From IMG/VR virus record IMGVR_UViG_3300000228_000556, positions 1-36,759 of that record: a stretch of DNA of 36,759 nt; one strand, written 5' to 3'. The notes under the pieces were generated by a model. The model saw nothing but the letters and a program-made list of their open reading frames with translations, was not told where the DNA came from and searched no databases. A program made the position numbers and the translations under genes. Source of the stretch: a virus. Positions 8,951 to 32,526 of this stretch are shown here, one piece after another; the stretch's first letter is position 1; every line of letters begins with the position of its first letter.

Positions 8951-11900
8951 TTAGTCTTTAAAAATATTAATATGCGGACGAATATTTATCCCCATACCAC
9001 CCTCCCGCTCTTTTTTTGTAGGCTGAATGCCGCCCTTGAGCAATATATACGCCTCTTTTTTCCTATCCTCTTCCGGCAATGCGTCAATGTATATTCTCGC
9101 GAGCTGCTTTTGCTCCTCCGGCGCATCGGCTTCGCTCACTTTTTTGATTAGCTCTTCTCTTGCTTTCTCTTTTTTGTTCTTCTCAAATCTATCCGGCGTA
9201 GTTTCTTTATAATGCCGCCTTACAATCGGTATCTCTTTTACGTCAACAGGCTTGTCGCTCATCGCCTTAAAAGGCAATAGCAACGTATCTGTAGCTACGG
9301 AAGGAGCGCCGCCGCCGTATTGCCCCATAACATACATTATATCATCCGGACGAACGTGTATGTTTACCTTGTGAAGACCGTTAGACACTGTTATCGCCAT
9401 TTCCCCTTTTGTGGTGTTGCCAGTGCTAGGGAAGTGTTGCTGTTTTTTTGGCAATTTCTCTTTATTATCGGGGTGTATCTTGCTACCGTTCCAGCTTTCA
9501 TTTATTCTCACGTCTACGAACGGACGAAAGATTGTCGGAAATACGGTACCTATGTCAGAGCCGCCGACTGGATTGTAGGAGCCCCAAGCCGACCCAACAA
9601 CATTGGCAAAAGCAGCCAGCGCGCCGTCTCCTTTTCCGGTAAACGAATCATATATATTGTCAATGAGGGTCTTAATAGGTCTAAGGGAGTGCGTCAGGGT
9701 AAAGTTTGTATAGTGAAGGCTTCCATCTTCGTTGTGCCCCAGCACGATAACAAGGTTTGCTTTCCTGTCATACTCATTTGTTTTTTCGCGCCAATCTGGG
9801 TCTACCATGTCATTGTACGCATTGTTGCCTATGGTTATAGCCGTAAGAGTCGCTATAGATGCAATAGCTACTTTTGGGCTGTCTTTGGCGATTCGAAAAG
9901 TCTTATAGTTGCCTTGAATGCTTGGATTTGCAAACATATAAACAGCTGATATTGCAGAAGTAGCATTACCTTTTTTATTGAAATTTATTGTAACTTCTTT
10001 TGCATGTTGCGCCGCTCTCTCTATGCTCATCCCTTTATCTTTCGCCGCGATATACGCCGCCAAACGGGTAGAGTCTTCGAAGATTTTGTTTGCTTTGTCA
10101 ATAAAATTAACGACCTTCTCTAACGCCTGTCGAGGCTTTGAGTTTGCTATCTTCTCCAAATCTCCTAATGAGGCGAATATATCCTCTCTTGTTGAGAGTG
10201 AAAGCCCGCCAGTCGTTCCCCCTGCGTCAACCATCTCTTTGTATATCCTAGCGCCCTCTGAGCCTTTTTTATTAGCCATAGCGTCGTATACATACTTGAC
10301 GGATAACGGCTGGTTCCCTAATGCTTTAGCGGCGCCTTTGAAGCCCATACGAGACAGGTTATATAAAATTGCCTCCTGTATATCTCTTTTGATATTATCT
10401 ATCCAAAACTCTACGTTATTTCGAGTCAGCATCGAAGACCATAGTCTTGTTATTGCGCCTAGCGTCTTGATGAATATGTGCATATCATTTATGCCCATCC
10501 CATTCATAGCCCCCGCCAGCGTCTTGTCATTTATCTGTATCCACACGGGCTTCCCATTCACCCGAGCTACTATCACATTCTCCGGCTTCGTCGGCATGAT
10601 AGGCGTTTTGCCATCATGCGCCATCCCAATCGCCTTTGGCGCCCCAAGGTTCGTAAATAGCGGAGTACCGTCTTTTGCCTCGTCTATATATTTGATGAGC
10701 GACAAAGTCACGCGGTTCTTTTCCGCTCTCAACGTCGCCTGTGAGACATTGGCCTGTATATTTCCGAGTATGTCGTGTACCTCAAGCGACGAGCCTTTCG
10801 CCGTCTTTATCCCTGTTGTCGGCGCTCCGATACCACTACCGGCTAGCGCCTGTACCGTATTGTCGCCCTCGTCTTCCATGATTCTGTTCAGCGGCACATG
10901 CTCTTTGTACTTTGCGCGTAACTGCTCATAAAGCTTTGGCTCTATCACCTGCCCATCTTTGAGTATATCAAGCGTCATTTCGTTGAGCTTGGCGGCATTG
11001 GCGGCTACGGCTTTGATTTCCTCTGCAAAAGGTAGATTTTCGATGATAGCGTGGATTTGTTTTGCGCCCTCGCTACTCATGCCTGCAGCTCCCTCAAACA
11101 TAGCGGCGTTTCGCTCAGGCGCGTGTTTTGCATGCAGATAGCTATTCACAAGCGCTTTTGTTTTTGCAAAGTCATTGCCGTATTTGTCGGAAATTTCCTT
11201 GATACCGTCCACGATGCCCACCATGATTTCCTTGACACTGTCCATCTTTGCCTGCACGCGCCCATCGTAGAGCGTTCGCGCTAGATACGGGTCTGCTTCG
11301 TCGCTCAATTTTTCTCCATTTTTCTCTCTGGCGGCTATCTCGCTTTCGACTTTCGCCCAATTATCCTGCACCGCCTCTCGCAAAGACATGAGCGACTCTT
11401 TGATTTTTGCCGACATACCCGGTTCATTCTCCAGCTTCTCTATCTGCTTGTACCCATGCCACTCTTCCGGCGGTCGCGTCTCCCTCGTCTCCACCGCCTC
11501 CCGTATATCCTGCCGCGACCCCGCTTTTGCAAGCCCCGGAAGATTCTCTTGCGTCAGCGTCATATCTTTGCCCGCCGCCTCCTGTGTAGCTAGCCCCTCG
11601 AGCTGTGGTTGCTCTTTTTGATACAACACATCCCGCTCTTTCGCCGCGACTTCCATCTCCCCATATATCTTCTTCGCCGCCTCCGTATCGCCAAATAGCG
11701 CCGAAAAAAACTCTCTTTGCCTATCATCCAGCTTCGCCATAGCTTCATGCGATTTTGGATTTTTCGTGAATATATCCACCAAAAAGCTCTTCATCTTCGC
11801 AAACACGCCCTCAAGCAGTGTGGTAGGCTCTCTTCCCTCGCCAAGCCACTTGACAAAAGCATGCGCAAACTCCTCTTCTTTTGCTACGCTCCACTCGCCT

Positions 11901-14671
11901 TTCTCTACACCAAAAGCCGCTTCGGCGGCGGCTCGCTCCTCAGGGCTTAGAGTACGGCGGAAATAGTGCCCGTATTCGTGCATCACGGTTGCAAAGTTTG
12001 CGCTTTTGAATGTGGTGATGACGTGTGAGGTTGAGAGTTTTTCGTATACTCCGTGCACTATTTCATCTTGACTTATTTTTGAAGATTGAGGTATACTATC
12101 TCCCACAGCAGATGAATGCGCTTTTGCGCCAGCCACAGTCTCGCTAGTCGAGAGTGAGGGAGTGGGCGACCCCTCCGTCTGCCGCTTGAACTCTCTAGCC
12201 GTATCTCTTGGGCTATTCCTGTCCGTCGCGTGCACGACAATATTATAAAAACCACCATCTTTTTGAATCCCAATCGCTTTTAGCGCGCCATCATCTTTTG
12301 TTTTTGCAAGAATTGTATTATCTGGGTTTGTAGCCCGCAAAAAATGGGTAGGATTATCTTTTACCTCTTTTATTAGCCTGAAAACATCAGCTTCATTTTC
12401 AAACATTTTTGGGTGTTTTTGCAATAGCGTAGTCAGATTTGTAGAGATAGTTTTGTCCGAAATGCCGGCTGTATCACGAACCCATTTTTCAACATTCAAA
12501 AAAACTTGATGATTTTTTGGGTCTTTAAGATCTACAGGGTCGCCAACAAGTTCAAAGTTTGGCTTATTCTCTTCTTTGGAAAATAACATATCAGCCTCGC
12601 GCATCAGCGCCGCATGCTCATCTTTCGGCACATACTCCTGCCGCCCCATATCGTACACAAACTCAGGCTTTGCCGTAGTATCCGCCGCTTTTGCCGCAAT
12701 GTATCTATCAAACGCCCCGGTATCTTTTGCGAAGCTAGCTATGTCGGACATAGCCGCGCTCTCCGCCGGGCTAAGCGGCTCCATATTCGCCGTCTTCTTG
12801 TCTAGCCTCTCTATAACATCCCGATTGATACCAAGCGTATTCTTTTGATACTGCCCCGCTTTGAAGTCGTTGAGCTCCATATACACAGAATCAAATATAT
12901 CTCTATTCGCGCTAGCCGCGTCCACCTCCGGCTTTGACATATTCGGATAGTCTACGACCTTTAGCCCATTTGCCGCGTCCCACTCTTGCCTACTCACTCC
13001 CGCGGTTGCGGCTCTTGCGTTCATCAGCTCGTCTGTGGCGGCTCTTGCGCTAGACATCTCGTCTATTCGCTCAAAGGCGCGGTTGTTTAGGAGCGCGTCT
13101 AGCTCAGGTTGTTTTTTTGCGGCTATCTTTGTAGTGAGGTACTCCGTGAACGGGGCGATGTCTTTTTGCTCATAGGCGTGAAGAGCCGCGGTTTTGACAT
13201 CTTCAGCGAGCGGGTATTTATTTAGGACGTTTGCGAAGTCTTCTGCGCTGTGCAGAGAGCTATCTATTGTTTTTTGTAGTGAGCTTATAATACCAAACCC
13301 TTGCAGGTTGGCGGGTAGTCCAGTCTGTCCGTCATTCCACACCGAAGACATATGCAGTTCGTTTTCGGTAGGCGGCACAATCTCAGCGGCTTTGGCGACG
13401 GCGGTATCTATATCCGCGCCGGCTCGAAGCTGATCGTCTATTGCGGCTTGACGTTTTGTGTAGTTAGCCTGTGCGTCCATCTCCGCCGCATGCGTGACGC
13501 TATGTATCTGCTCTAGCGCCGCGTCTGCGATATTTGCGTCTACTATAGGATTGTCGTCAAAACGGGCTGTGACGCGCGCTACCGCGGCTGGAGCCGCCGA
13601 GTCGTTGGTGGTAGGCTTCAGCTCAGGCGCTATAGTATCCACTTTTGGAGCTATCACTTTTGCGCTCATTCCACCGATTGGCGCGCCAATAGCGGCGCCC
13701 ATAAGAACACCTGGTACAGCGTTCGCGATAGAAGCTTTAAGCGCATCGTCGTGCGACATACCTTGTCTTCTTTGATTGGAATACGTTTGCGCCGCGCCGA
13801 CCGCGCCGTTGAAAAGCCCGTCTGCTAGCGCCCCGGCAGATACGGCGGCGACTTTTCCAGTGAACATCCCCCCTACTTTTGCGGCAAAAGCCGGAAGAGC
13901 GAGATTCGAGACATCCCCCAGAGTCCCACCGACAAAACCGGCTATGTTTGCATCGCTAGGGTGCGTGACAGAGTCATACATCCCGGCAAGCGAGGCTTTC
14001 ACGGTTTGCATTGGAGTCTTAGCATCCGCCATCTGCTTCTTGACCGCTTCATACTCTGCAACCCGCACAGGGTCGGTCATCTGCCCGATTTTGTACTCTT
14101 CGTCCCTTCTTGCTATATCTTGTAGAATAAATTTGTTTTTTTCGGCATCACCAAGGTGTAGCGCATTCCCCAAAGAAACAACGGCTGCGGTTGCCCCCCT
14201 ACCTGCGCGATTAAAAGCGGTTTGTCCGTCAAACGGACGCTCAGTCTCAAGAAGAGCTGGTGCGTATGTGTCCTTCAACTCTTGTGTAGTCATTTTTGAT
14301 ATAGGTTTTTGCGTATACGCCGGAAGCGCGGCGGCTTTGATGTTTGCTTTTCCAGTATCGGCAAGCTGATTTGTGCTCTTGAGAACTACGGCGTTACGTT
14401 TTGCGGTCAACAGCTCTTTTCTAGCGTCTATTGATTCTTGCGACGGAAGCAGGAGTTGTGCTACGGGCTGCACTGGCGCCGCACGGACGACTTGCTCTCC
14501 AACGCTGATAAGCCCGCGAAGCAAACTAGGACCGACACCGTCGCTTGCGGCGTAATTTGTATATTTCTCTCGCAAGCTAGGCTCTTCGTTTGGTATATCT
14601 AGCGGGATAGTAGCGGCAGGCTTGGCGGTTTTGGCGCCAATATTATCTAGGTTTAAATCTATGTAAGCCAT
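8951..14671 (-). CDS. Giant polyvalent, probably ejected, virion protein with metalloprotease motif
   Basis: This 1906-aa protein ends the late operon. Residues about 230-330 are Gly/Ala-rich and amphipathic, as in internal or ejection proteins. Around 790-820 a segment (LRATNPDNTILAKTKDDGAL ... GGFYNIVVHATD) resembles the barnase/EndoU/colicin-E5-like nuclease domains of phage polyvalent proteins. Around 895, VMHEYGHYFRR is a zincin HExxH motif with a downstream EEFAHAF. Residues about 1410-1600 (EFWIDNIKRDIQEAILYNL ... INFNKKGNATSAISAVYMF) resemble a large polyvalent protein-associated domain (LPD38-like). Such proteins enter the cell with phage DNA. A candidate late promoter motif lies 40 bp upstream and AAGGA precedes the ATG. 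Domain names are from memory of the families. Confidence 0.8.
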   Translation of the reverse strand: MAYIDLNLDNIGAKTAKPAATIPLDIPNEEPSLREKYTNYAASDGVGPSLLRGLISVGEQVVRAAPVQPVAQLLLPSQESIDARKELLTAKRNAVVLKSTNQLADTGKANIKAAALPAYTQKPISKMTTQELKDTYAPALLETERPFDGQTAFNRAGRGATAAVVSLGNALHLGDAEKNKFILQDIARRDEEYKIGQMTDPVRVAEYEAVKKQMADAKTPMQTVKASLAGMYDSVTHPSDANIAGFVGGTLGDVSNLALPAFAAKVGGMFTGKVAAVSAGALADGLFNGAVGAAQTYSNQRRQGMSHDDALKASIANAVPGVLMGAAIGAPIGGMSAKVIAPKVDTIAPELKPTTNDSAAPAAVARVTARFDDNPIVDANIADAALEQIHSVTHAAEMDAQANYTKRQAAIDDQLRAGADIDTAVAKAAEIVPPTENELHMSSVWNDGQTGLPANLQGFGIISSLQKTIDSSLHSAEDFANVLNKYPLAEDVKTAALHAYEQKDIAPFTEYLTTKIAAKKQPELDALLNNRAFERIDEMSSARAATDELMNARAATAGVSRQEWDAANGLKVVDYPNMSKPEVDAASANRDIFDSVYMELNDFKAGQYQKNTLGINRDVIERLDKKTANMEPLSPAESAAMSDIASFAKDTGAFDRYIAAKAADTTAKPEFVYDMGRQEYVPKDEHAALMREADMLFSKEENKPNFELVGDPVDLKDPKNHQVFLNVEKWVRDTAGISDKTISTNLTTLLQKHPKMFENEADVFRLIKEVKDNPTHFLRATNPDNTILAKTKDDGALKAIGIQKDGGFYNIVVHATDRNSPRDTAREFKRQTEGSPTPSLSTSETVAGAKAHSSAVGDSIPQSSKISQDEIVHGVYEKLSTSHVITTFKSANFATVMHEYGHYFRRTLSPEERAAAEAAFGVEKGEWSVAKEEEFAHAFVKWLGEGREPTTLLEGVFAKMKSFLVDIFTKNPKSHEAMAKLDDRQREFFSALFGDTEAAKKIYGEMEVAAKERDVLYQKEQPQLEGLATQEAAGKDMTLTQENLPGLAKAGSRQDIREAVETRETRPPEEWHGYKQIEKLENEPGMSAKIKESLMSLREAVQDNWAKVESEIAAREKNGEKLSDEADPYLARTLYDGRVQAKMDSVKEIMVGIVDGIKEISDKYGNDFAKTKALVNSYLHAKHAPERNAAMFEGAAGMSSEGAKQIHAIIENLPFAEEIKAVAANAAKLNEMTLDILKDGQVIEPKLYEQLRAKYKEHVPLNRIMEDEGDNTVQALAGSGIGAPTTGIKTAKGSSLEVHDILGNIQANVSQATLRAEKNRVTLSLIKYIDEAKDGTPLFTNLGAPKAIGMAHDGKTPIMPTKPENVIVARVNGKPVWIQINDKTLAGAMNGMGINDMHIFIKTLGAITRLWSSMLTRNNVEFWIDNIKRDIQEAILYNLSRMGFKGAAKALGNQPLSVKYVYDAMANKKGSEGARIYKEMVDAGGTTGGLSLSTREDIFASLGDLEKIANSKPRQALEKVVNFIDKANKIFEDSTRLAAYIAAKDKGMSIERAAQHAKEVTINFNKKGNATSAISAVYMFANPSIQGNYKTFRIAKDSPKVAIASIATLTAITIGNNAYNDMVDPDWREKTNEYDRKANLVIVLGHNEDGSLHYTNFTLTHSLRPIKTLIDNIYDSFTGKGDGALAAFANVVGSAWGSYNPVGGSDIGTVFPTIFRPFVDVRINESWNGSKIHPDNKEKLPKKQQHFPSTGNTTKGEMAITVSNGLHKVNIHVRPDDIMYVMGQYGGGAPSVATDTLLLPFKAMSDKPVDVKEIPIVRRHYKETTPDRFEKNKKEKAREELIKKVSEADAPEEQKQLARIYIDALPEEDRKKEAYILLKGGIQPTKKEREGGMGINIRPHINIFKD

Positions 14672-20777: not shown

Positions 20778-21143
20778 TCAGGAGCTATTGGGTTTGTCTC
20801 GTAGATTTGCCCCCGCTAGCCTAGATGAAAGCATTAGGTTAAACTCCAAAATCTTCATCACGTCCGCCATAAGGTCGTATATGTCGCCAACATCTCGCTC
20901 TATAAGATGTCTAGCTCCGTATTTGCGGACATCCGCAAATCTTTGCTTTGCAAGCTCATCTCTTTCAATAGGCGTAAGCTCAACTATCGTCGCTTGTATC
21001 CTTGCGTCCTGCTCAACTTCTTGTGGCAAAAATGCAAAATCCCATTCGCCAACCTTACCTATATACTTAACGCCATCGCCTTTTATGTCGAGGCTAGTCC
21101 CGTTATGCGAATATTCGATATACCTTTTGTACTTGTAAATCAT
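20778..21143 (-). CDS. Hypothetical 121-aa protein overlapping the reverse transcriptase gene
   Basis: This protein has a strand-rich N-terminus (YIEYSHNGTSLDIKGDG) and a helical C-terminus. It starts inside the last 41 bp of the reverse transcriptase gene behind a good AAGGAG site. The overlap ties it to DGR expression, but it does not resemble known DGR accessory proteins (Avd, HRDC or MutS-like) and may be a tail-fibre partner. Confidence 0.6.
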   Translation of the reverse strand: MIYKYKRYIEYSHNGTSLDIKGDGVKYIGKVGEWDFAFLPQEVEQDARIQATIVELTPIERDELAKQRFADVRKYGARHLIERDVGDIYDLMADVMKILEFNLMLSSRLAGANLRDKPNSS

Positions 21144-22305
21144 TGATTGCTTCTCCTTTTATACGATTTAAAAAATAGCTAAACGTAGCCGTCCTCTTTG
21201 CATTGCCGATGATGGATACTAGACTATCATTAGCCCTGTTTTTCAAAGCTTTGGCAAAATTATGTAAGCTTCTTTTTCTTACAAACCTAGTGCTTCTCCA
21301 AGTCCTAAACCCCACAAAGTTAACACCTTTTTTAATTTTTGCTATCTTCCACCTTGATAGTTCTAGTTTTAAGCTACTTCTCATCCACTCAACGATTTTG
21401 TGTAGTACAATCTTTGCGTCTTCTTTCGTCGCAAATCCACACATTACGCTATCATCTACATACCTGTTATAGTGTTTAATTTTTAGGTGTCTTTTTACCC
21501 AGTGGTCAAATTTGTTGAGATAGACAAGACCGTAAAACTGACTGAGCAAATTGCCTATATGAAGCCCTTTGGAGCCACTACCAACAAAAGACATCATCAA
21601 ATCCAAAACTCTGACGTCGCTAATCTTTTTGCTTAATAACTCTCTTAGCTCTGCATGGTCAATACTATAGTAGTATTTGCGCACATCTATCTGCAAAAAG
21701 TATTCTTCGCCGGTGCATTGTCTTAGCTGCCATTGCAACTTATCCGCTGCTTTGTGGGTTCCTTTGCCAATTCTGCAACCGTAGCTATCAAAGATGAAGC
21801 TTCTATCAAATACGAGATATACGAGTCTGTAAACAGCGTGTTGCACTACGCTATCTCTGAAAGATGGCGCCGCTATCTCCCGTGGTTTTGGTTCATACAC
21901 CATAAACTTCTTTGGTTCGCTTGGCGTATATGAGCCGCTGAGTATCTCTTTTTGTAGTTGTAGTAGTTCTGCCCCAATATTATTTTCAAAATCATAAATA
22001 CCTTTTTTAAATCTTTTTGATTTTCTAGCGCTTATGAAAGCGGCATATAAATTATCTAGATCAGCTATTTTCTCTAATGTAATATGACTTTGAGAATATA
22101 AAGTAGTCTCATCGTCAGCATATTTTGCCGAAGCGGGAGAAGTAATCCCTATGTCTCCAGTATCTACCATTGTAGTATCAGGTAAAGAGAAATAGTCCGA
22201 GGAGCGAAAGCCAACATTGTTGTTGTCATTCGAGCGATTGTTGTTCAAGTTACGATAAAAAAGCCCCGCATCGGACGTGTTGTCCCAGTTGCCACACGAT
22301 AACAT
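21103..22305 (-). CDS. DGR reverse transcriptase, with the template repeat in its N-terminus
   Basis: This 400-aa frame encodes a reverse transcriptase of the diversity-generating type. The catalytic motif is YVDD in YNRYVDDSVMCGF (about 285). IGNLLSQFYG (about 250) carries the Ser-Gln pair that marks DGR enzymes where others have Gln-Gly. FVGFRTWRS near the C-terminus fits the thumb. Residues 3-38 are the translated template repeat. ATG 22305 has GGGGGGAG 8 nt upstream; the next in-frame ATG (22170, after the TR) has no site. The enzyme copies TR RNA with adenine errors for transfer to the VR of the fibre gene. Translation from 22305 is inferred. Confidence 0.93.
   Translation of the reverse strand: MLSCGNWDNTSDAGLFYRNLNNNRSNDNNNVGFRSSDYFSLPDTTMVDTGDIGITSPASAKYADDETTLYSQSHITLEKIADLDNLYAAFISARKSKRFKKGIYDFENNIGAELLQLQKEILSGSYTPSEPKKFMVYEPKPREIAAPSFRDSVVQHAVYRLVYLVFDRSFIFDSYGCRIGKGTHKAADKLQWQLRQCTGEEYFLQIDVRKYYYSIDHAELRELLSKKISDVRVLDLMMSFVGSGSKGLHIGNLLSQFYGLVYLNKFDHWVKRHLKIKHYNRYVDDSVMCGFATKEDAKIVLHKIVEWMRSSLKLELSRWKIAKIKKGVNFVGFRTWRSTRFVRKRSLHNFAKALKNRANDSLVSIIGNAKRTATFSYFLNRIKGEAINDLQVQKVYRIFA
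22192..22300 (-). repeat. DGR template repeat (TR)
   Basis: This 109-bp segment is the invariant template. Aligned to the VR (offset 559 bp, no gaps) it differs at 15 positions, 14 of them template adenines on the minus strand (14 of 28 adenines) and one a template G. Its reading frame carries repeated Asn/Asp codons (for example RNLNNNRSNDNNN), the typical AAC-rich design that yields many residues by adenine change without stop codons. It lies between the avd-like gene and the reverse transcriptase core. Confidence 0.95.
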
Positions 22306-22327
22306 TGTAATTACTCCCCCCTAAAAT

Positions 22328-22720
22328 TTATTTAGCTAATTCAGACTTTATCCAGCCGCCTATCATTGCGCCCACTTCATTTATCAAGAGATTTAGAGCT
22401 AGGTATCTTCGCTCTGCTTCAAAATCGCTTCTGCCGGACTTCCCGTCGTGATATTGGAAATAACCGAGTTCAAAAGCGAGCTTCGCCATCATTCTTAGTT
22501 GCTGATGTTTTACGTCAAGCTCTGTCAAGCTTGTTTTTTTGTGGTATCTTTTTTCACCCTCGACGATAAGGTTGTAAACCTCATACATTGTGTTGCGAAT
22601 CTGTTGACTTAAACCATATTTCTCGTGTCTTGGAAAATGGTTTAAGTTGATATTCGCCAGCTTGATAAGCGATGTCATCTTGAGTACCAACACCGCTTCT
22701 TTATCTTTTGTGACCTTCAT
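22328..22720 (-). CDS. avd: Avd-like DGR accessory protein
   Basis: This 130-aa basic, all-helical protein should form the four-helix-bundle pentamer that binds the reverse transcriptase and TR RNA during mutagenic homing. Family-typical segments are FPRHEKYGLSQQIRNTMYEV (about 29-48) and RRYLALNLLINEVGAMIGGW (about 104-123). It lies between the variable fibre gene and the TR in the BPP-1 order. No catalytic residues are expected. Confidence 0.88.
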   Translation of the reverse strand: MKVTKDKEAVLVLKMTSLIKLANINLNHFPRHEKYGLSQQIRNTMYEVYNLIVEGEKRYHKKTSLTELDVKHQQLRMMAKLAFELGYFQYHDGKSGRSDFEAERRYLALNLLINEVGAMIGGWIKSELAK

Positions 22721-22744
22721 CGTTCGCTACCGCTCACTAAGACA

Positions 22745-25297
22745 CTATACATAGGCCGAGGAGCGAAAGCCAACAGAGTAGTTGTTATTCGAGCGAGAGT
22801 AGTTCAAGTAACGATAAAAAAGCCCCGCAGCGGACGCGTAGCCCCAGTAGCCACACGAGCCCACAAACATATTGGCTATGTGATATTTATAAAAGTAGTC
22901 ATTGCCGAATAGATTGCTTCCACCGCTAGATTGAACAGAATTTGAATCTTTAAAAAAGAAGCCGCAAAGGTCTCTTGCGACTCCGCTTGTGGCGTTACTT
23001 AAGACAGCGTTTGCTCCATTGCCCCAATATACTGTTCCTATAGATGAGCCTATCGCAATTGGAGAAGTCACCGCGTCATATCTATCGCTCAGATTGCCGC
23101 TTGTCCCCCAAGCGTCCGTAGCCCCGCCAAATCCGCCTGTTAAATCTTTTAGATATGCAGATTGTTTGAGCACATATATTAAATCTGATGTTATTAGCGC
23201 TGTATCGGCTGCATTTGCTCCGGGCGATGTTAGCCCCAAATCAACTTGGAGCATAGACCCGTTCACGTCGGCTACGCCGTTATTTGCGCCGTTATGCGTA
23301 GTCTTTGCAAAAGATGAACCTGAGCCTGCTTTTGGCTTAGCGCTAGCGCCTGCGTCGCCTGCAGATGTAAAAGTTACACTACTATCATTTACATCTGCAA
23401 GTGAGCCATTGTTACACCCTTTTGGAAAGTTATTTACTCCCGTAGCGTCGTACCAAGCGCAATTTGTTATATTCGTAGCCGCCTGAGCTTGCGCCAAAGA
23501 GCAAAGAGCTAGCCAACCTCTCATAAATACGCTTGTCACATTCCACCCAGCTCCTCTAGCCCTAGCTAGATATACAGCGTCGGCTAGTATTCCCGTACAT
23601 CCGCTTATCATACCGTTTGAATTGGTGAAAGATGTGCCCGTTGTTAAAGATATAGGGACACCATTTTTGACCGATACAGCCGCTGAGCCGGATTTGCTAT
23701 TTATATACTTGTCGATGAAGAAGCCTGATTTTATAGCTCCACCATCGATGAATGCTCTATGAAGTACATATCCATCAGTATTTGCCGCCGCTTCATTTGC
23801 GTATGAGCTAGCAGGTAGCATATCAATAGCATTTGTGCCATAAGTCGCATATCGAGGGCTTGAGGCGTGTCCTATCCGATACCACATACGAGGCATCCAG
23901 CATACGATAGAGCCGTTGGTATGTTGATAGTTTCCGTAGTTATCGTGTCCTACCGTAGTCGTTCCCGTCATTTCAGCTAGGCTTAGTACTGCAAAAGCTT
24001 CTGTTGTCGGAGCTACTGAAAAGCCAAGCTCGCCTTGGTTTGAATACGTTACAAACGCGCTTTTTGTGGTAGCGACAACCTCTGTCCAAGCAGACGGACC
24101 ATAAGTCGTTCCGTTGTGTCTCGCTCTAAATTTATAAGAGGTAGAGACCTGAAGATTACCGGATGGGACGGACGTGCTAAGTCCTGTGTGTGTAGTTGAC
24201 CATACAAGGCTGTTATCGCTTGTTTTTCGAACTTCAAAATCAGTTGAAACGTATGTATCGCTTCCGCCGGACACGCTAAACGTCCCAGCCGTAAGCGTAG
24301 GAGTCTCCGTCATATCAGACGGAGTTCCTGTGACGCTCAGGGCTGGAGCTTGAATGTAGATATTTGGCGTAGTGTAATTTATCGCGGAGCTCCATTCGCT
24401 TCTATGGTTGTCAGAGCCTTGCATCACTCTTACATATACGCTAGTATTTGCGGGAGCGGACGGAGTCCAGCTTGTAAGATTTAGAGCGCCATCATAGCTG
24501 TCAACGATAGTAGCAAAAGAAAAACTATCGCTAAGTTGCCAGTGCACAAAGTCTTGCGCCCCCACGAAAGCGTCTGTTGTCGCATATGAAGCGGTTATCG
24601 CGCCAGCAAAGCTTGTCGCTCCGTTTGTGGGGGTAAAAATCGTAGGTTTGAGGATTTGAGACACGCCTCCTGCAGAGACGGCTCCCACATCCGCTTTTTC
24701 GTCCAATAGCGCTTGCATCTCTGTTTTTGTATGATACCTATCGTCATGCGTATGCCCAGTTGCCGCATAGTCGCTATGAGTATGCGCTGCAGGAGCTTTG
24801 CCGTCAAGAGCGGTTGACAACGTCGCAAGACCTTCCGCCATATCCGCAAGCTGTGCGAGCAGTTGCCCCACAGTATCAGCGTCGTTTTCCAATCTAGCCG
24901 CAAGCTCTTCAAACGTATCAAGAGCCGCCGGAGCAAGCCCAGTGATTTGAGCTTTGATATTTGTGATGACCTGCTCTAGCGTCTTGCCTTCTAGCTTTGC
25001 GGAGTCTACCGCCTGAGCGTCTGCATGCAGATACTCTATCGACGTAAACGCCGTGAGCGCTGCTGTGAGGTCTTCGCGGACTTTTGCGAAGTTTGGCAAT
25101 ATATATCCGTCCGGAAATGTCACGTTTCCGGGTGTAAGGTCGAAGAGTTCGCCGACTTTTCCGGTTTGAAACTCCATTATGATTTTGATTTTGTTGAGCG
25201 CCGTTATGGCGTTTGTAACAGAAGCGGTTAGCCCAGTTACGGCGGGGGTTAAAGCTGTGTTTAGCGCTGCTAATATCTCTTCCGGTGTCATTGCCAT
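22745..25297 (-). CDS. DGR-diversified tail fibre / receptor-binding protein
   Basis: This protein of about 850 aa is the DGR target. The N-terminus (1-175) is helical and likely binds the virion. ATGHTHDDRYHTKTE (about 180-205) is a tail-fibre linker motif. Two fibronectin-III-like domains follow (about 215-410), then a C-type-lectin/formylglycine-enzyme-like domain (about 420-850) that ends in the variable repeat. Relative to the template the last residues change N to Y or S, D to G, A or N, and T to A at 12 positions, altering the predicted binding surface. I chose ATG 25297 (AGGAAAG site) over a start ten codons earlier. It probably sets host receptor range. Confidence 0.92.
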   Translation of the reverse strand: MAMTPEEILAALNTALTPAVTGLTASVTNAITALNKIKIIMEFQTGKVGELFDLTPGNVTFPDGYILPNFAKVREDLTAALTAFTSIEYLHADAQAVDSAKLEGKTLEQVITNIKAQITGLAPAALDTFEELAARLENDADTVGQLLAQLADMAEGLATLSTALDGKAPAAHTHSDYAATGHTHDDRYHTKTEMQALLDEKADVGAVSAGGVSQILKPTIFTPTNGATSFAGAITASYATTDAFVGAQDFVHWQLSDSFSFATIVDSYDGALNLTSWTPSAPANTSVYVRVMQGSDNHRSEWSSAINYTTPNIYIQAPALSVTGTPSDMTETPTLTAGTFSVSGGSDTYVSTDFEVRKTSDNSLVWSTTHTGLSTSVPSGNLQVSTSYKFRARHNGTTYGPSAWTEVVATTKSAFVTYSNQGELGFSVAPTTEAFAVLSLAEMTGTTTVGHDNYGNYQHTNGSIVCWMPRMWYRIGHASSPRYATYGTNAIDMLPASSYANEAAANTDGYVLHRAFIDGGAIKSGFFIDKYINSKSGSAAVSVKNGVPISLTTGTSFTNSNGMISGCTGILADAVYLARARGAGWNVTSVFMRGWLALCSLAQAQAATNITNCAWYDATGVNNFPKGCNNGSLADVNDSSVTFTSAGDAGASAKPKAGSGSSFAKTTHNGANNGVADVNGSMLQVDLGLTSPGANAADTALITSDLIYVLKQSAYLKDLTGGFGGATDAWGTSGNLSDRYDAVTSPIAIGSSIGTVYWGNGANAVLSNATSGVARDLCGFFFKDSNSVQSSGGSNLFGNDYFYKYHIANMFVGSCGYWGYASAAGLFYRYLNYSRSNNNYSVGFRSSAYV
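22751..22859 (-). repeat. DGR variable repeat (VR)
   Basis: This is the 3' end of the fibre gene, finishing 3 bp before its TAG stop. All but one difference from the TR are at template adenines. The 3' end GGCTTTCGCTCCTCGG is shared exactly with the TR and is the likely initiation-of-mutagenic-homing site, followed by one further adenine change and CTAT. I found no second VR in the window. Confidence 0.95.
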
Positions 25298-25307
25298 TTT
25301 TACTTTC

Positions 25308-25580
25308 CTAATCGTTCGCGCCGACAAAAGCGGCGATATATTTTATTTTTCCGGCGACGACAAGATTTGACACCGTGTCGGCGGAGAGCTGCGGCACGTC
25401 TACCAAAAATTCGCACACAGCGCCGCTATTGAGAAGCGAAAACTTCTCGTCTTTGTACCCGTGCACTACCGCCGCTTTGTCTGCCACGCTTGGAGCGTGA
25501 GGCACAGCGTCGCGGCTGAGAACTCCCGGTTCCATCGGCGCCCGAAGTTTTCCGGTAGTCCAATCGTAAAAACCTGCCAT
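25308..25580 (-). CDS. Small tail/virion protein
   Basis: This 90-aa protein (starts MAGFYDWTTGKLRAPMEPGV) ends 10 bp before the fibre gene start. It has a Trp/Gly-rich N-terminus and a strand-rich C-terminus. Position suggests a fibre connector; no family recognised. Confidence 0.6.
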   Translation of the reverse strand: MAGFYDWTTGKLRAPMEPGVLSRDAVPHAPSVADKAAVVHGYKDEKFSLLNSGAVCEFLVDVPQLSADTVSNLVVAGKIKYIAAFVGAND

Positions 25581-31857: not shown

Positions 31858-32526
31858 TTACGCCGCGAGATATTTTTGCAATGTAGGAAAAGATATTTCA
31901 AGAGAGGTGCAGATATGTTTTTTCTTATATCCATCAGCAAGCAACTTTTTTGCTTTTGCCGCTTTTTCAGGCTCATGTAATCCAGTTGAGCCCTCAGGCC
32001 GCCCTATCTTAAAGGCTTGTTTCTCCTCATCAGCGGTTAGCTCCCTGCCAATCTCTCTTCTCTTCTTCGCCACGGCGATTTCTTTTTTACTTTTCAGAGC
32101 CTGAATGGTTCTTTCGCGTATCATATCTCTTTCAAATTCAGCGAACATTCCGAGCATATTTACCATCATTTTTTGCATTGGGTCGGCAAGTTCATACCCG
32201 TTTTTTGTCTTTTGCGGAGCCAAATCCATATTGTGTTTTATGAGTATTAGCCTCACGCCCCTCTTTATTATGTCGTCAAAGATGGTTCTAAGGTCGAGTA
32301 GCGACCGTCCAATACGGCTAAGCTCCGTGCAAACAAGCACATCGCCAGCCTTTAGACTTTTTACAAGCCCATATATCTCTCGCTTATCGCTACGAGAGCT
32401 AACAGATTCGCTTACAACTTTTTCACACGCTCCAAGCTCAAGCGCTTTTAAATACCTGTAGATTTCTTGCTCTTGATTTCTTGCATCTTGCTCGTCCGTA
32501 GAGACTCTTGCATATCCTATTATCAT
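31858..32526 (-). CDS. Serine recombinase (resolvase/invertase type)
   Basis: This 222-aa protein has the N-terminal resolvase catalytic domain: YARVSTDEQ with the nucleophile Ser (about residue 9), TELSRIGRSLLDLR (about 70-83) and an ARF-like EFERDMIRERT (about 130-141). The C-terminal HTH reads KKHICTSLEISFPTLQKYLA (about 202-221). It lies between the terminase and portal genes, an unusual place. It might resolve phage dimers, invert a segment, or be a leftover mobile element. Catalytic residues look intact. Confidence 0.9.
   Translation of the reverse strand: MIIGYARVSTDEQDARNQEQEIYRYLKALELGACEKVVSESVSSRSDKREIYGLVKSLKAGDVLVCTELSRIGRSLLDLRTIFDDIIKRGVRLILIKHNMDLAPQKTKNGYELADPMQKMMVNMLGMFAEFERDMIRERTIQALKSKKEIAVAKKRREIGRELTADEEKQAFKIGRPEGSTGLHEPEKAAKAKKLLADGYKKKHICTSLEISFPTLQKYLAA

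Follow-up and report, generated by a model that had tools for sequence, protein, structure and literature searches.

The window analysed here is a 36,759-nucleotide stretch of DNA, the IMG/VR virus record IMGVR_UViG_3300000228_000556, and it carries integrase, terminase, portal-like, and methylase genes. In the phage collection, the closest matches to the portal-like protein come from Campylobacter and Helicobacter phages, at about 25% identity. An open reading frame of 1906 amino acids at 8951-14671 is by far the longest in the window. A DNA-invertase-like recombinase (31858-32526) and a separate integrase (1-1251) are found in this one phage, so there may be a second variation device beside the diversity-generating retroelement (DGR). 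The DGR, whose RNA template serves to randomise the tip of the tail fibre, lies on the minus strand in the order fibre gene with the variable repeat (VR) at its C terminus, avd, template repeat (TR), spacer, and reverse transcriptase (RT) core, with the following parts.

22745..25327, minus strand: fibre-like target gene, with VR at its C terminus
22751..22858, minus strand: VR, which pairs with TR
22328..22720, minus strand: avd, encoding the accessory protein; matches Pfam bAvd (PF22296) at 4e-15
22314..22321, minus strand: GGGGGGAG, ribosome-binding-site-like, within the 5' arm of the closing helix
22309..22321, minus strand: 5' arm of the 13-bp helix across TR, ending 3 bases before the ATG
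22303..22305, minus strand: proposed start codon ATG, with a counterpart in relative L004 and out of frame in relative L009
21103..22305, minus strand: fused TR-spacer-RT frame, 400 amino acids, with an ATG start and a YVDD motif
22192..22299, minus strand: TR, whose mismatches to VR are at TR adenines
22078..22191, minus strand: spacer (Sp) from TR to the RT core, disordered in the predicted protein model
22135..22147, minus strand: 3' arm of the helix, inside the spacer, in the window fold

The window thus has a DGR-type RT, an adenine-biased TR/VR pair (13 of the 14 mismatches face a TR adenine), and an Avd. Residues 140-334 of the fused frame match Pfam RVT_1 (6e-15), and residues 77-354 match PDB 8ub7_A in a phmmer search (1.8e-47), the best match being the 328-residue RT of 8ub7. 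By tblastn, the window RT matches annotated DGR RTs.

An earlier note on this DNA had placed the TR inside the RT reading frame. That observation is confirmed: the minus-strand frame beginning at ATG 22305 is open through the whole TR and the spacer and continues into the RT, to 21103. GGGGGGAG occupies 22321-22314, eight bases before this ATG, as the note had it. Its anti-Shine-Dalgarno energy is -9.8, a value reached by only 12 of the 1014 ATGs counted over the two strands and by 4 of the 40 window genes, including the fused RT. The start codon follows the avd stop codon by 22 bases, which, with a TR frame that reaches the RT, is the layout of a translationally coupled avd, TR frame, and RT. 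The TR is read in the frame of the fibre, and the TR peptide CGNWDNTSDAGLFYRNLNNNRSNDNNNVGFRSSDY copies the fibre tip CGYWGYASAAGLFYRYLNYSRSNNNYSVGFRSSAYV; with initiation at 22305, the best reading here, the RT would carry the Asn-rich N-terminal copy of the fibre's variable peptide that the note had proposed. The next in-frame ATG, at 22170, sits in a spacer motif common to relatives and, again as claimed, has no binding site (0.0 kcal/mol). TTG 22248, inside the TR, has a weak site (-4.7). Downstream of 22170 the RT frame has no further ATG, GTG, or TTG before the RT core is reached; a start at an ATT codon is conceivable. As in the fused subclass typified by ACA1, the TR is in frame with the RT, free of stops, and preceded by a start codon, and no usable start lies between the TR and the RT core, where the only ATG is the site-less one at 22170.

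In the RT tree, the window groups with L004, L009, and L067. The earlier note had looked to frame conservation among related DGRs, and on this point L004 and L009 differ. L004, the nearest relative, retains the binding site, the ATG, and the frame. L009 has the binding site, the helix, and the ATG, but an insertion puts the ATG in the wrong frame for the RT, and there is no in-frame start just before its TR; the fusion is therefore not fixed even within the small clade to which the window belongs. The note held that its proposal would be refuted if close relatives had stop codons interrupting the TR frame; neither L004 nor L009 bears out such a refutation, but about one-third of the wider family has stops in the spacer. 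Both L004 and L009 have a spacer ATG behind TGGAGACATAGGG, at a position where the window codon is ATT, and from its sequence the L009 RT may start at that ATG. At 5447-5605 of L009, the frame of the upstream ATG crosses the TR and ends at a TAA shortly before the TGGAGACATAGGG-preceded ATG, which is in the RT frame. Judged by this arrangement, L009 is possibly a stop-restart variant.

Relatives were gathered by protein scans with Avd and RT, to which fifteen annotated phage and prophage stretches were added, giving 259 loci. An RT was present in 250 of these, and 221 had a usable TR with adenine-biased mismatches; 21 had no TR and 8 were too short. There were 159 distinct loci, of which 117 were left after clustering at 85% RT identity. 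The RT protein alone found no close relatives in viral_contigs, a scan with the L014 RT matched only L014 itself, and the genome collection yielded one distant locus that was left out of the sample. Loci were called coupled when the TR is read in a frame other than that of the RT and the first stop of this TR frame falls no more than about 9 bases from an RT start codon. The 117 loci comprise 52 coupled, 25 fused (21 without and 4 with their own ATG near the RT), 5 overlapping, and 35 uncoupled; the corresponding numbers for all 159 distinct loci are 68, 34 (29 and 5), 6, and 51. On the RT tree the fused form requires 6 changes on the best tree, and at least 4 are forced on strongly supported branches. 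In L079, L081, and L082 the TR frame passes the RT start and overlaps the RT by ~100 to 157 bases in another frame. The antisense hypothetical gene annotated over the TR and spacer of Pseudomonas phage Bise (L097:2201-2491) is probably spurious.

That the TR is open in the VR frame is expected, because the VR must be open. The spacer is under no such coding constraint, yet it is open far more often than chance would give. In 80 of 115 loci (two of the 117 had spacers that were too short), the VR frame meets no stop within the spacer, compared to 24.5 expected from dinucleotide shuffles and to 30 and 15 in the other two frames. With clustering at 60%, the count is 17 of 34, compared to 5.2 expected and to 6 and 7 in the other frames. 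An ATG in the VR frame at the 5' end of the TR, scored independently of the downstream class, is found in 50 of 52 coupled loci (12 and 7 in the other frames), in all 21 of the fused loci lacking their own RT start (8 and 9), and in 12 of 35 uncoupled loci (11 and 16), the relatedness of the loci being a caveat on these counts as on those for openness. A tree-controlled test on independent pairs gave differences in one direction only (mean, 4.1 versus 0.0), but with a median p of 0.125. Among 50 coupled loci, 37 place this ATG exactly 1 base beyond the stop of avd, and in most loci the strong binding site at the TR is missing from the equivalent place of the VR. The frame, its in-frame start codon, and its openness are thus shown by comparison among the loci, which also lends good support to translation of the TR frame; for the window phage itself, we regard passage of ribosomes through the TR as likely.

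Several other comparisons carry less weight. In 44 of 52 coupled loci the TR-frame stop meets the RT start at offset -1, but the RT's own MK or MPK start supplies the junction stop, so the exact overlap is partly automatic; because an MK start makes TGA by itself, the ATGA overlap was dropped as a main argument for coupling. Indel lengths in multiples of three within classes are partly circular, as the coupled class fixes the net phase, and are not proof; the motif-phase table has the same circularity, GTAG in phase 1 being a stop. An unconditional phase test (phase retained by 23 of 37 pairs; p = 3e-4) is weak and relies on noisy TR ends. Coupled and uncoupled loci show no significant difference in how strong the binding site at the RT start is (medians, -4.0 and -5.9; p = 0.13).

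The comparison also shows a helix joining the flanks of the TR. In the window fold, 22321-22309 pairs with 22135-22147, forming thirteen contiguous pairs that span the TR. Because the overall fold of the window is unremarkable in stability (z = -1.5), support for the helix has to come from comparison. It is 12-13 bp long and covaries across relatives, including those without an ATG after the G-rich arm. When partners were swapped between loci, the native combination of 5' flank and spacer still gave the better helix for 50 of the 52 coupled loci, all 21 fused-only loci, and 34 of the 35 uncoupled loci; among fused loci that have a start of their own it did so in just 2 of 4, and among overlapping loci in 1 of 3. 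In a fixed register, applied to 43 of the 52 coupled loci (seven without the motif and two without the AUG were left out), 97.0% of cells are paired, pairing extends to at least 12 of the 13 places in 42 of 43 loci, and 50 cells are changed on both sides, a number that averaged 11.0 over 1000 swaps and never exceeded 20. Sliding the register by -3, -2, -1, or +1 lowers pairing to 57-66%. The swap and fixed-register tests are unbiased; the anchored-arm table, which takes each locus's own best helix, is biased. In fused lineages, including VP58.5 and ACA1, the letters differ and the pairing is the same. On this covariation, the helix is a feature of the template RNA, with or without translation.

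A Shine-Dalgarno-like arm with a VR-frame AUG directly after it, most commonly at a gap of 3 bases, is found in 47 of 52 coupled, 17 of 21 fused-only, and 2 of 35 uncoupled loci. This combination is what sets coupled and fused loci apart; because uncoupled loci have the G-rich arm as well, the presence of a “binding site” is not proof of anything by itself. What the earlier note called a strong ribosome binding site is indeed Shine-Dalgarno-like, but it is not solely that, since it is also an arm of a covarying long-range helix. In the window, the Shine-Dalgarno segment has an unpaired probability of 0.00 when the spacer is included in the fold, 0.13 when the spacer is omitted, and 0.54 with half of the TR.

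The G-rich arms of uncoupled loci fit an alternative in which GGGGGGAG is only a helix arm, the RT starts downstream of the TR as in BPP-1, and the open frame is a by-product of the fibre-tip coding of the TR. Further points lean the same way: the TGGAGACATAGGG-preceded spacer ATGs of L004 and L009, the lack of peptide-level constraint in coupled spacers, and the cultured BPP-1, BalMu-1, ZX4290, and other systems annotated with an RT starting after the TR. The four of 25 fused representatives with their own ATG near the RT are a point against the reading favoured below. A by-product of the TR, however, leaves unexplained why the spacer is open in a single frame and why a VR-frame ATG is tied to that openness, and the window, with ATT at the position in question, a site-less ATG 22170, and no other ATG, GTG, or TTG ahead of the RT core, offers such a start little room. 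We consider this alternative unlikely.

The peptide encoded by the TR and spacer probably is a passenger that is hardly selected. Substitutions in the spacers of coupled pairs are spread evenly over the three codon positions (200/203/220; p = 0.57), which means that the frame stays open while the amino acids drift; the RT in coupled pairs shows a strong bias (222/181/608). A modest third-position excess in the spacers of fused pairs (68/67/101; p = 0.009), together with residues that resemble each other around TTMVDTG..G..PA in a number of fused lineages, would suit an extension that is a working part of the RT, e.g., a flexible tail binding RNA or Avd. The N-terminal extension is predicted to be disordered, however: in an AlphaFold model from 49 sequences, residues 1-71 have pLDDT values below 50 and no secondary structure, with most of the core above 90. 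Coupled and uncoupled relatives manage without the extension, and in coupled loci the same stretch carries a conserved RNA motif, so the residue conservation may be RNA conservation. A working extension thus appears quite improbable. The motif, TGGA..AGGGA..TTCC..GCGAAAT..TGGTAG (window 22078-22191; alignment A6), is present in coupled loci and more loosely in fused ones, and the spacer nucleotides look constrained as RNA. Rfam gave nothing relevant in window 21000-23200, where the motif has no family match, and we regard it as a candidate RNA family. In Cruim01 (L106), a misc_RNA, “RT-15,” is annotated at 2229-2421. Finally, the difference of the fusion from most studied DGRs and the differing frame of L009 might suggest that the frame is a chance event in a single phage or a product of misassembly; either is highly improbable given the repeated changes to the fused form forced on the tree and the annotated fusions of cultured VP58.5 and ACA1.

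The best reading of the window element, and one that we find reasonably probable as a whole, is a BPP-1-like phage DGR with a coding template repeat, in which, to judge from the sequences compared, ribosomes would reach the RT through the TR and the fold of the template would hide their entry site. A ribosome ending avd at 22328 would restart at ATG 22305, read the TR and spacer, and continue into the RT; in terminating at the avd stop it would keep the helix arm open, letting the next ribosome start at the TR frame. The resulting RT would have a disordered N-terminal tail of ~71 residues, the first half copying the fibre variable peptide. In fused elements the ribosome would go on into the RT, and in coupled ones the TR frame would end at the RT start codon (translational coupling). 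With the arm paired to the spacer, the more so if RT-Avd holds the spacer, the start site would be shut and the RNA would serve as template. The RNA would thus be either messenger or template, and RT-Avd closing the helix on the spacer would make RT synthesis self-limiting. We infer this use of the frame by ribosomes, the hiding of the binding site, and the choice between messenger and template, and we put the switch forward tentatively. For the built-in control suggested in the earlier note, the helix provides a physical basis, and the control itself would follow from it by inference. Possibly, too, though short of an even chance in our view, a large branch of phage DGRs has a TR that is a translated leader with its binding site held in the closing helix, an RNA that toggles, and an RT-Avd that limits itself.

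Most depictions of the TR show a non-coding RNA. If RT can be made only by ribosomes that cross the TR, DGR activity would have an internal brake, translation against templating; the RT level would be tied to avd translation, and the balance between expression and template supply would become directly testable. A translated TR would also change the annotation of RT starts in DGRs. The TR-in-RT arrangement has already been published and so is not new. The wider pattern, translated TRs with the entry site as a helix arm, is new within the literature searched, most of it outside subscription journals, where we found no published reading of the TR frame as coupling or control.

Several known systems invite comparison. 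In the autoregulation of the group II intron protein LtrA, the RT is said to bind the RNA carrying its own ribosome binding site. The window RNA would differ in being a mutagenesis template with the site in a helix across it, and RT binding there is putative. Pseudoalteromonas phages ACA1/ACA2 have a TR that forms an N-terminal extension of the RT, in an arrangement published in 2023 that is there called uncommon, with no control proposed (PMC10612066, section 3.13). The annotations of these phages and of Vibrio phage VP58.5 (gp20; Vhmlvirus-type DGR) read the TR in this way, as in the window, but their start codon overlaps the avd stop, compared to 22 bases after it in the window, and on the RT tree their RT lineage is separate from that of the window. 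A 2012 survey includes a DGR group with a TR overlapping the end of the RT open reading frame (PMC3521204, section 13); this DiGReF structural group 3 is defined by overlap alone, and its section is silent on frame, start site, coupling, and helix.

Bordetella phage BPP-1 shares with the window a related RT and the order of fibre-like target, avd, TR, spacer, and RT. It differs in that its TR frame meets a stop codon 31 bases ahead of where brt is annotated to begin and in having no VR-frame start codon near the 5' end of the TR. The TR frame likewise stops before the annotated RT start in BalMu-1, ZX4290, YPCBV-1, 1F273_PE002, Bise, and the H. ganmani prophage. According to one report, native BPP-1 brt has no clear ribosome binding site and adding one raised activity 100-fold, moving the TR out of the operon increased activity another 35-fold and raised the amounts of TR-RNA and bRT, and RT-Avd holds the spacer (PMC12875486). 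The proposed switch may bear on the missing brt site and on these activity gains in E. coli, which fit the switch, though other causes are possible.
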